Below, in pieces: positions 10,256 to 15,341 of a DNA stretch of 64,000 bases. Position 1 is the first letter of the stretch. Every line of letters starts with the position of its first letter. The stretch is from Bartonella alsatica (GTDB taxonomy: Bacteria; Pseudomonadota; Alphaproteobacteria; Rhizobiales; Rhizobiaceae), in assembly GCF_013388295.1 (NCBI RefSeq), contig NZ_CP058235.1:1528001-1592000 (forward strand), in the 5' to 3' direction. A program made the position numbers and the translations under genes. Below the pieces are notes generated by a model. It was not told the origin of the DNA and did not search any database. It was given only the letters and a program-made list of their open reading frames with translations.

Positions 10256-12429
<2,174 letters not shown>

Positions 12430-12524
12430 TAGTGATGAGTGTAAAATTTTAAATTGTGATATCATTGAGTTTGTAAGATTTAACTGTAAGACATGTGCGC
12501 AACAATTTTATAGGTGTTAAAAAG

Positions 12525-12932
12525 ATGAGAGGTATAATTATTAGTCAGGATCAGGGGACTTATCTCGTCTCTGGCGATGATGGTAAGCGTTATCAGTTTG
12601 CGACTTGGGATTGGTTAGGAAAAAATCCACCCAGGGTGGGAGATACCGTTGATTTTATGTGTGAAGGGGATACTGTCAATTCTGTTTTTCCATTGTTGCA
12701 ACAAGATTCAAATTCTTCAAAAGTAATGTTAGCACTCATTTGTTGGTTCACTGGTATATTTGGTGTTCACCGTTTTATGGTTGGTAAAGTTAGAACTGGT
12801 GCTTTAATGCTTATTCTATCTTTAACACTTGCCGGAGTGATGATTACAGGGATTTGGACAATTGTTGATTTTATAGTTATTGTTGCTGGGAAGTTTACTG
12901 ACAAAGATGGGAAGAAAATTACACATTGGTAA
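12525..12932 (+). CDS. TM2-domain membrane protein (intact copy of a duplicated unit)
   Basis: 135 residues from ATG 12525 (preceded by AGGTG; the GTG at 12495 is rejected). Residues about 1-50 form a small beta-rich cytoplasmic region (GIIISQDQGTYLVSGDDGKRY...PRVGDTVDF) that could be OB/SH3-like. Residues about 70-125 are a TM2 domain: one helix (VMLALICWFTGIFG), the diagnostic GVHRF turn, then a second helix running into GIWTIVDFIVIVAG. The function of bacterial TM2 proteins is unknown. It is the intact partner of a tandem duplication: a decayed copy lies at 13321-13664, and each copy is followed by an ftsB-like sequence. The downstream gene in the ancestral unit was therefore ftsB. Confidence 0.8.
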   Translation: MRGIIISQDQGTYLVSGDDGKRYQFATWDWLGKNPPRVGDTVDFMCEGDTVNSVFPLLQQDSNSSKVMLALICWFTGIFGVHRFMVGKVRTGALMLILSLTLAGVMITGIWTIVDFIVIVAGKFTDKDGKKITHW

Positions 12933-13084
12933 CATGTTTTCCATTTCAAATAAAATGTAAAGAGTAAATAACATCATTATTTTTCTGTGGTTAATTTATT
13001 AAGTATATAATAATAAATTGCTATGATGTGTGTATTGAATGTTAAGGTATAATTATGCACAGTTGATTAAAAATATCAAAAAAA

Positions 13085-13290
13085 GACTGTGCTATTTTCT
13101 ATGAATAAAACGAGTATGCTAATTGTTTAAGCATGCTTTCTATTACCGCTTATAACGATGGAGAATTTTAAATTACTGGGATAATCCCAAGCTATTTTAA
13201 TTATCACATTTATTCTTGTGGATACGGATTGTATTTATCCGTTAATTTTACCCATATATTATCAAGTCAGCAAAAATTTCCTTATACGTA
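13085..13290 (+). pseudogene. Degenerate ftsB copy (first tandem unit)
   Basis: Aligns by eye with the start of the intact ftsB at 13843. The shared leader AGACTGTGCTATTTT precedes an ATG at 13101, and the core at about 13193-13242, containing TTATCACATTTAT, GTGGATACGG and TTGTATTTATCCG, corresponds to the YFSYHIYHGEYGLYSRS segment of FtsB. The frame is broken at once (ATG AAT AAA ACG AGT ATG CTA ATT GTT TAA) and by small insertions. The coiled-coil half is lost; similarity fades by about 13290, where the second TM2 leader begins. Confidence 0.8.
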
Positions 13291-13291
13291 A

Positions 13292-13664
13292 GTAACAATT
13301 TTATAGGTAGGTAGTAAGGAAGAAAGGTAAAATTATTGATTAGGATTAAGAGGCTTATTTTGTTTCGAGTAGCGATGGTAAACGCTATTAATTCGCAGCT
13401 TGAGATTGGTTAGAAAAAATACTCTGAGATGTGTGATGCCGTTGATTTTGTATATAAAGGTGATACTATTAATTTTGTTGTTTGTCTTTTAGTGTATTGG
13501 AGATCACCGCTTTATAATTGGTAAAATTGGAGTAAGTGTTTTGATGCTTAGTTCCATCTTTATCAGTTAGTGGGGGGCTGAGAGGTAGATCTTGCAAGTT
13601 ATTCGTCACTTATTTTAATAGGGAAATTTACTGACAAAAATGGATATAGAGATACAAAATAGTG
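13292..13664 (+). pseudogene. Degenerate TM2-protein copy (second tandem unit)
   Basis: Nearly the whole length of the TM2 gene at 12525-12932 can be recognised. The leader TAACAATTTTATAGGT (13292-13307) matches CAACAATTTTATAGGT before the intact gene; 13321 onwards matches codon by codon (GGTAAAATTATTGATTAGGA; AGCGATGGTAAACGC; GATTGGTTAGAAAAAAT; GATGCCGTTGATTTTGT), and the end matches at GGGAAATTTACTGACAAAAATGG. It has several in-frame stops, a lost ATG and internal deletions, including much of the first membrane helix region. It lies directly upstream of the intact ftsB, so it marks the ancestral TM2-ftsB order. Confidence 0.88.
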
Positions 13665-13842
13665 AATATCGAATATTATGATATAACAAAGATGATATGA
13701 CATGGCTTGTTAGAGCGGGAGTATTCAGTGTATAATAAGAAAGTGTTTACGTGTATGAATTTAGTAATGAGGTATTAATCAAAATTATGCATAGTTTGGC
13801 AGGAATATTAGGATAATTATACTGTAAAGACTGTGCTATTTT

Positions 13843-14160
13843 ATGTGGACTAAGCAGAAACGCAGATCACTCAAAATGTACTTTGTACTACCACTTATGA
13901 CAGTGGGAGTTTTAGGCTATTTCAGTTATCACATTTATCATGGTGAGTACGGGCTGTATTCACGGAGTGAAGTAAATCAACATATCGTCGAATTAGAAGA
14001 AGAACTTCATAAAGTAGAATCTGAGCGGATATCTATTGAAAAGCGTATTTCTCTTTTACGCAACGGACATATTGAAAGAGATATGTTGGATGAATATATT
14101 CGGAAGAATTTAAATTTTTCAAAGGCGAATGAACTGACAATTCTAATTCCTTGTAAATAA
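13843..14160 (+). CDS. ftsB: Septum formation initiator FtsB/DivIC-family protein
   Basis: 105-residue bitopic division protein of the FtsB/DivIC family, which in the FtsQLB complex links early and late divisome assembly. Residues 12-30 form a single membrane helix (MYFVLPLMTVGVLGYFSYH), followed by the conserved HGEYGL turn and a periplasmic coiled coil at about 45-75 (HIVELEEELHKVESERISIEKRISLLR), then DMLDEYIRKNLNF. It lies between eno and pdhA, the standard alphaproteobacterial position. A decayed paralogue of its first half lies at 13085-13290. Confidence 0.9.
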   Translation: MWTKQKRRSLKMYFVLPLMTVGVLGYFSYHIYHGEYGLYSRSEVNQHIVELEEELHKVESERISIEKRISLLRNGHIERDMLDEYIRKNLNFSKANELTILIPCK

Positions 14161-14300: not shown

Positions 14301-15341
14301 ATGGCAGAAAAATCTAAAAAAAGTTCTGCATCAACGGTGCACACTGCATTATCACACATCACAAAGAGAGCACCAATAGCGCATTTTATAAAAGAAGAAG
14401 AAATAGATGCTTATCGTAAGATGCTTTTAATTCGTCGCTTTGAAGAAAAGGCGGGGCAGCTTTATGGTATGGGGCTTATTGGTGGATTTTGTCATCTCTA
14501 TATTGGGCAAGAAGCTGTTGTTATTGGAACATTGAAGGCAGCAAAAGAAGGAGATCAGGTTATCACCTCTTACCGTGATCATGGACATATGTTGGCAGTC
14601 GGTATGAGTCCGCGTGGTGTTATGGCAGAACTTACAGGACGTCGAGGTGGATTTTCTAAAGGAAAAGGGGGGTCAATGCATATGTTTTCTAAAGAAAAGA
14701 ATTTTTATGGTGGGCATGGCATTGTTGGTGCACAAGTTCCGATTGGCTCCGGGTTAGCATTTTCGAATCAGTATCTTGGTAACGATAATGTGACACTGGT
14801 ATATTTTGGTGATGGTGCAGCCAATCAGGGGCAGGTTTACGAGAGTTTTAATATGGCTTCGCTTTGGAAGCTTCCTGTTGTTTATATTATTGAAAATAAT
14901 CAATATGCTATGGGAACATCAGTTGCGCGTGCGTCTGCAGAAACTGATTTTTCTCGTCGTGGTCTTTCTTTTGAAATTCCAGGTATTGTTGTTGATGGCA
15001 TGGATGTTCGAGCCGTAAAGGGAGCAGCTGATGAAGCAATTTCTTGGGCGCGTTCGGGTAAAGGGCCTATTATACTTGATATGCAGACCTATCGTTATCG
15101 TGGTCACTCTATGTCTGATCCAGCGAAATATCGCTCAAAGGAAGAAGTTCAGAAAATAAAAGAGGAGCATGATCCAATTGATCAGGTAAAGAATCGGCTT
15201 CTTGAACAAGGTTGGGCAAGCGAAGATGATTTGAAGTCTATTGATAAAGAAGTACGTGCGATTGTTGCAGATGCAGCAGATTTTGCACAAAGTGATCAAG
15301 AGCCAGATGCTTCTGAGCTCTATAGTGATGTTTTAGTTTGA
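14301..15341 (+). CDS. pdhA: Pyruvate dehydrogenase E1 component, alpha subunit
   Basis: TPP-dependent decarboxylase alpha subunit of the pyruvate dehydrogenase complex. 346 residues; a hydrophilic N-terminal extension of about 30 residues precedes the core. Signatures: [24 protein letters not shown], the [11 protein letters not shown] and GGSMHMFS active-site loops, the TPP motif GDGAANQGQ...IIENN, and the phosphorylation-loop-like [20 protein letters not shown]. The start ATG at 14301 has GGGAG 8 bases upstream. It is the first gene of pdhA-pdhB-pdhC, 16 bases ahead of pdhB. Confidence 0.97.

Follow-up and report, generated by a model that had tools for sequence, protein, structure and literature searches.

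The eno-pdhA interval of Bartonella alsatica, a bacterium of rabbits, contains one intact and one broken copy each of a TM2-domain gene and of ftsB. How did an arrangement arise in which the two intact genes are separated by two broken ones? The interval was analyzed within a 64,000-nt stretch of DNA, herein referred to as the window, which lies in a closed Bartonella genome of 1,659,117 bp. The original prediction had listed, in this order, intact TM2, broken ftsB, broken TM2, and intact ftsB, and all four were found in their places by Pfam search, open reading frames, and alignment (Table 1). It had explained the order by tandem duplication of a TM2-ftsB unit of about 0.8 kb, followed by reciprocal loss of ftsB from the first unit and of TM2 from the second. 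The observation was confirmed; the interpretation proved half right.

Table 1. Features of the eno-pdhA interval in the B. alsatica window.
Feature	Position	Strand	Evidence
eno (enolase), left flank	11161..12429	+	ORF list; eno 5' of ftsB and pdhA in 74/80 loci
Unit 1: TM2 leader, TM2, spacer, and ftsB 5' half	12478..13280 (ends approximate)	+	Self-alignment; also leaders and junctions in 21 multi-unit genomes and ftsB half-profiles
TM2 leader, conserved AACAATTTTATAGGT	12501..12515	+	Direct repeat D7; leaders in relatives
TM2 copy 1, intact, 135 aa	12525..12932	+	Pfam TM2 PF05154, E 1.5e-13
ftsB' fragment, interrupted by stops: leader and about the first 165 of the 315 nt of ftsB	about 13084..13280	+	Self-alignment; half-profiles
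Duplication junction: ftsB codon about 53-58 joined to TM2 leader	13276..13293	+	End of self-alignment; same type in relatives
TM2 copy 2, decayed	about 13294..13664	+	Sequence; repeats; tblastn
Functional ftsB leader AGACTGTGCTATTTT	13828..13842	+	Direct repeat D6; similar leaders in relatives
ftsB, intact, 105 aa, DivIC/septum formation initiator family	13843..14160	+	PF04977, E 1.2e-14
pdhA, right flank	14301..15341	+	ORF list; PdhA in 71/71 genomes

The product of TM2 copy 1 scored 51.1 bits against PF05154, above the gathering score of 27.9, and matched no NCBIfam family at E 0.1. The ftsB product was likewise above the gathering score of PF04977 (54.3 bits vs. 28.9) and missed the cut-off of the NCBIfam FtsB equivalog (15.7 vs. 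101). In protein searches of the whole genome, TM2 matches were found only in these two places and an ftsB match only once. TM2 copy 2 of the window has no start codon at the aligned place, contains four stops within the first 32 codons, and has a net deletion of about 60 nt.

One TM2-ftsB block is present twice, in diverged form, as window segments 12501-13276 and 13294-14002. Their colinear alignment includes 480 identities, 195 mismatches, and 133 gap positions, and the self-alignment score is 156, compared with 17.6 ± 2.3 (maximum 26) for 200 dinucleotide shuffles. The pairwise alignment of the two halves, which the original prediction had proposed as a check, gave one colinear diagonal with offsets of 725-795: 793-795 at the start of TM2, 733 at its end, 744 at the ftsB leader, and 725 inside ftsB. 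The leaders claimed to be common to both copies of each gene are real: AACAATTTTATAGGT is present twice, at 12501 and 13294 (direct repeat family D7), and AGACTGTGCTATTTT stands before both ftsB copies (family D6). The locus is thus a direct tandem repeat of one genomic segment, as in partial tandem gene duplication. One feature had been missed, namely that the ftsB remnant of the window consists of the first half of ftsB alone and the repeat stops there.

A PdhA search matched all 71 Bartonella genomes, and the eno-pdhA intervals of the 70 others were compared with the window. Numbers of units, assigned by us from tblastn and interval length, were two in 22 genomes, three in 16, and one in 29; three genomes were without TM2 and one, B. 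australis (G005), had an array of its own. The interval is 1092-1262 nt long in single-unit genomes (15 genomes outside the deep outgroup), 1850-1987 nt in the 22 two-unit genomes, and 2718-2820 nt in 13 of the 16 three-unit genomes, the others being G021 (2331 nt), G033 (2997 nt), and G030 (3068 nt, with N). The deep outgroup, which we take to be bee-type, accounts for 14 of the single-unit genomes; TM2 was not detected in the compared stretch of one of these (G059). The ancestral order was found in undivided relatives, represented by 11 single-unit genomes outside the clade described below and by those deep-outgroup genomes (13 of 14) that have one TM2. In the eno and pdhA tree, the 38 two- or three-unit genomes and four single-unit genomes form one clade (100/100). 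This 42-genome clade is herein named lineage 4 because B. alsatica is placed in that lineage in the available text of PMC7441241. The proposed tandem duplication of about 0.8 kb was therefore substantiated both by a self-alignment far above shuffles and by two or three units in 38/71 genomes. The comparison of this interval among Bartonella, also suggested with the original prediction, yielded the expected single-unit genomes, but two complete units were found in no genome tested.

Among 80 loci kept from a wider search, 67 have eno-ftsB-pdhA without a TM2 match, seven, all from Bartonella, have TM2 between the genes, and the remaining six are without an eno or ftsB match. Since TM2 was found between eno and pdhA only in Bartonella loci, it likely entered this interval within the Bartonella line, at the sensitivity of that search. 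All 65 named TM2 relatives (among 80 TM2 relatives in the protein database) are from Bartonella. The single TM2 gene is broken in the single-unit loci L129 (G042) and L133 (G041), and TM2 was not found in the eno-pdhA interval of G001, G006, and G007; TM2 therefore looks dispensable. Three close relatives in the deep outgroup (G058, G060, and G059; loci L137, L138, and L140) have about 3 kb of extra sequence before ftsB. Another of the loci (L080), on a contig titled Bacillus subtilis SK6B4, carries an alphaproteobacterial eno-ftsB-pdhA locus with coordinates and identities equal to those of Pseudochrobactrum L041, and is probably a mislabelled or contaminated record.

For location of the breakpoint, half-profiles were built from functional ftsB genes of 41 clade genomes, the 5' half spanning nt -60 to 174 and the 3' half running from nt 175 into the ftsB-pdhA spacer. 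G030, which contains 1751 N, did not enter the half-profile, open-frame, and leader tests; the half-profile search covered the other 37 multi-unit genomes. The 5'-half profile detected 50 internal remnants in 36 of these genomes (E<1e-3) and none in G033. The remnants end at nt 132-170, including 39/50 at nt 156-166, the profile itself stopping at nt 174. Because the 5' profile cannot reach beyond that point, the search with the 3' half is the stronger test. It found no match in internal units of any of the 37 genomes up to E 10, and a shorter 3' profile gave one match with E 8.7. In a control, the 3' half of functional ftsB was detected in 32/32 single-unit or TM2-less genomes; four of these had contributed to the profile. 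No pairwise alignment with the complete ftsB gene extends past nt 197, apart from three weak matches (scores 23.5-25.5; G053, G054, and G065) that overlap the last TM2 copy, the one in G065 reaching nt 231.

In 21 genomes, the ftsB' fragment passes straight into a TM2 leader starting some 40-50 nt before TM2. This leader contains in the relatives what we take, from the motif, to be an AGGTGG-type ribosome site. No clear microhomology was found at the original duplication junction. Retention of the 5' half in 36/37 genomes and of the 3' half in 0/37 indicates that the right end of the duplication most likely lay within ftsB, and that the first ftsB copy was most likely truncated at birth by the breakpoint, not lost later. 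A truncated copy without homology past a common point in ftsB is the pattern of partial tandem gene duplication; the missing 3' half gives no sign that both units were complete at some time, as reciprocal loss implies.

The second TM2 is open in 18/37 multi-unit genomes, including five two-unit and 13 three-unit ones, and nine changes between its open and decayed states were found on the tree. Thus, the losses are neither symmetric nor paired and, judging from the reading frames, only TM2 copy 2 decayed, repeatedly. The third TM2 is open in 11/16 three-unit genomes, and in some genomes three diverged TM2 genes persist. A common ftsB endpoint across the clade is accordingly found together with a decayed second TM2 in B. 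alsatica and open second or third TM2 copies elsewhere.

In the TM2 tree, for which the bootstrap had not settled, copies 2 and 3 form one clade (97/84) with copy 3 nested in copy 2; three-unit arrays therefore likely arose from two-unit ones. In the three-unit clade, pooled dN/dS values, calculated without pairs with dS under 0.05, were 0.17 for TM2 copy 1, 0.29 for copy 2, 0.53 for copy 3, and 0.08 for ftsB, and single copy-3 pairs reached 1.41. By these estimates, constraint on the extra TM2 copies is relaxed, yet dN/dS is below 1 overall. Copy 3 of G065 (L155) has a dS of only 0.031 to G054, vs. 0.722 for ftsB and 0.807 for TM2 copy 1; on these distances, the block of TM2 copies 2 and 3 in G065 looks horizontally acquired from the three-unit group.

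Copies 2 and 3 are positioned outside the copy-1 clade of lineage 4, beside other lineages, which at face value means an earlier duplication; an origin of the duplication inside lineage 4 was not rejected on the TM2 tree (p-AU 0.265). In the species tree, the single-unit genomes G070, G032, and G015 are unplaced. In AU tests, neither a single clade of the duplicated genomes (p 0.221) nor a duplication after these three genomes had split off (p 0.149) was rejected. The fourth single-unit genome of the clade, B. koehlerae (G023), is sister to G022; about 0.63 kb is missing from it, the tail of TM2 copy 2 is kept, and the ends of the deletion lie at two GCATTTA stretches. These traces mark B. koehlerae as a secondary return to one unit; for the clade's other three single-unit genomes, too, such a collapse is likely. 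B. australis has a different history. Its locus (L139, 1300-3300) contains a TM2 array, the unit of which includes a piece of the 3' end of eno, recognized by a 23-nt match at 1353, 2061, and 2792. No ftsB remnant was found in this array by ftsB alignment, and its TM2 copies are sisters (99/89, TM2 tree). By unit composition and phylogeny, B. australis amplified TM2 separately, in a second, independent amplification.

Leader spacing provides an additional record of the event. For functional ftsB, this spacing is 29-32 in 37/42 clade genomes and 16-19 in all nine scorable genomes among the 15 from other non-outgroup lineages, the leader in the 42-genome clade being about 12 nt longer than in undivided relatives. 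For the ftsB' fragments, it is 18-20 in 27/34 first copies and 19 in 12/13 second copies. Exceptions are a longer leader in ftsB' of G022, which may perhaps reflect conversion, a score of 33 in G049, one value of 14, and 3/34 ftsB' that were not scorable; for ftsB' of the window, the script gave 47, and the spacing by eye is about 20. The short leaders of ftsB' compared with the long functional ones suggest that the duplication likely predates growth of the functional leader. The long functional leader is also present in the single-unit genomes G070, G015, and G023, as well as, by eye, in G032, which the script could not score; descent of these genomes from duplicated ancestors is therefore likely. 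The original prediction also placed ftsB in the promoter context of the second unit. This is formally true, but the leader and the pdhA side of ftsB resemble those of undivided relatives, and the predicted promoter change concerns the extra TM2, not ftsB.

The ftsB' leader was found between TM2 copies 1 and 2 in 34/38 multi-unit genomes (G010, G021, G030, and G033 were not used). Since the unit starts only 40-50 nt before TM2, the extra TM2 has little upstream sequence of its own. A copied leader upstream of a duplicated gene is the arrangement known from promoter capture, and we infer that this leader acts as a promoter. Divergence was analyzed in 34/38 multi-unit genomes (without G021, G030, G033, and G034). 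Among the 17 genomes whose TM2 copy 2 is open, columns diverge on average by 0.318 in the spacer, 0.165 in the ftsB' leader, 0.273 in the ftsB' body, and 0.179 in the first TM2 codons. The difference between leader and body was reached by 2 of 20000 column shuffles, and by 17 of 20000 for nine thinned genomes; these shuffles ignore linkage between neighbouring columns. In the 17 genomes with a decayed copy 2, the values are 0.253 for the leader vs. 0.338 for the body (51 of 20000 shuffles); conservation of the leader there fits recent decay and would not be specific to the promoter reading. This pattern suggests that a copy of the ftsB promoter may have been captured by the extra TM2, and the ftsB' leader is predicted to be a kept promoter.

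Two other causes of the low leader divergence were considered and rejected. Gene conversion between ftsB' and ftsB disagrees with the spacing of the two leaders (18-20 in 27/34 ftsB' vs. 29-32 in 37/42 functional genes), and A+T-rich composition disagrees with the spacer, which is equally A+T-rich by eye and diverges most. Two terminator-like sites were found on the + strand inside ftsB' of the window, at 13177 and 13224; they would speak against read-through in B. alsatica, where the extra TM2 is dead. A consensus promoter scan (17 sites vs. 11.5 ± 3.8) was uninformative.

The history proposed here starts with one tandem duplication of about 0.8 kb, which most likely began some 40-50 nt ahead of TM2 and ended near codon 55 of ftsB, and which would have occurred in an ancestor of Bartonella lineage 4, presumably by recombination at very short or no homology. 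The first ftsB copy would have been cut short at birth, and the TM2 copy alone was likely born whole. Unequal exchange between units would have produced three-unit arrays in some species, and deletion would have brought a few species back to one unit. The copied ftsB leader is predicted to serve as the promoter of the extra TM2, with the dead ftsB body transcribed as an untranslated leader. In B. alsatica, the extra TM2 is now a pseudogene, the first TM2 and the last ftsB doing the work. The account as a whole, from a duplication ending in ftsB through later TM2 decay, arrays, and collapses to a leader as promoter of the extra TM2, is considered here to be quite probable.

The common endpoint would also be predicted by duplication of a whole unit, if one deletion before the radiation had removed the 3' half of ftsB together with the spacer and TM2 copy 2 had then decayed lineage by lineage. 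A deletion of similar scale is known at this locus, that of B. koehlerae relative to G022. However, two events are needed where one suffices, and the intermediate was found in 0/37 genomes, so this sequence of events appears unlikely. Reciprocal loss from two complete TM2-ftsB units, as originally proposed, is what the B. alsatica sequence alone looks like. Internal units are without the ftsB 3' half in 37/37 genomes, however, and TM2 copy 2 is open in 18/37, so that loss was neither reciprocal nor shared; decay of TM2 copy 2 in the window stands, whereas the ftsB of unit 1 was likely truncated by the breakpoint, and reciprocal loss is very improbable.

Several independent duplications of the same region in different species would have a precedent in B. 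australis, where the repeated unit contains the eno 3' tail and ftsB remnants were not detected. An ftsB endpoint common across the 42-genome clade and a single clade of TM2 copies 2 and 3 (97/84; 96/82 in a second analysis) leave this explanation hardly any credence. The ftsB' fragment could instead be functional itself, for example as a short membrane peptide tuning the divisome. In 5 of the 45 fragments scored, a stretch of 45 or more codons, counted whatever its frame relative to ftsB, is open from a start codon near the old one; 40/45 have none. The body also evolves fast (0.273 and 0.338, the corresponding part of functional ftsB having medians of 0.091 and 0.115), and a function of the fragment itself is extremely doubtful. 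A duplication that ended inside ftsB is preferred here.

The AF2 model of TM2 copy 1 (pLDDT 74.8, pTM 0.43) contains five strands followed by helices. In a Foldseek search with this model, nothing was found at E 0.001 or better; the best solved matches were cold-shock/OB domains, with 1c9o on top (E 5.7e-3). TM2 copy 1 is predicted to consist of an OB/cold-shock-like N-terminal domain and a helical hairpin. Membrane placement would follow from the TM2 family, and the protein might, as a guess from the model, be a membrane-anchored binder of nucleic acid or ligand. A tentative extension, which may well turn out to be wrong, is that the half-copy of ftsB survives in lineage 4 since its leader drives the extra TM2, and that it thereby founded a genus-specific family of membrane proteins with an OB-like domain; the gene would have been amplified in tandem twice independently, with a breakpoint in ftsB in lineage 4 and in eno in B. 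australis.

Divergent resolution, or reciprocal loss of duplicates, is a known concept. The B. alsatica locus resembles it in having one working copy of each gene in different units, and differs in two respects: the loss of TM2 is confined to some genomes, and the extra ftsB was most likely incomplete from the outset. Partial gene duplication is a recognised structural class of duplicates in the available text of PMC3449122, where, as here, a breakpoint inside a gene leaves a copy truncated from the start. Unlike the class as outlined in that text, the partial ftsB' rides with a complete TM2 copy, and beyond it, the event, with its common endpoint, was traced here across 38 genomes. The available text of PMC11111574, which cites Anderson and Roth 1978 and Blount 2012, describes promoter capture by tandem duplication; there too, the junction sets a gene downstream of a neighbour's copied promoter without long homology. 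As far as described there, those laboratory cases were selected for expression, whereas capture is predicted here from conservation of the leader. Both kinds of event are therefore already known, and the interest of this locus lies in its clean breakpoint and the hint of a promoter. In the literature search, no title or abstract opening described the locus, and none joined Bartonella with the TM2 domain or the septum formation initiator.

The locus provides a clean bacterial example of how a single duplication, with its boundary inside a neighbouring gene, can leave both a dead fragment and a live paralog. The fate of this paralog can be read across 38 genomes, where it was kept, tripled, exchanged between species, decayed, or deleted. 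The case also shows that reading reciprocal loss from a single genome, without comparison to its relatives, is misleading. Should the ftsB leader indeed drive the extra TM2, the locus would represent a natural, long-kept promoter capture by duplication.

Additional conserved stretches were seen before functional ftsB. A TTAATCAAAAT-TGCAT-like stretch is located upstream of the gene in most genomes, by eye. About 50 nt upstream of ftsB lies a TTAATCAAAATCATGCAT-like stretch (window 13775-13792), possibly a regulatory site; by eye, it is conserved in most of the 71 genomes, including the deep outgroup.
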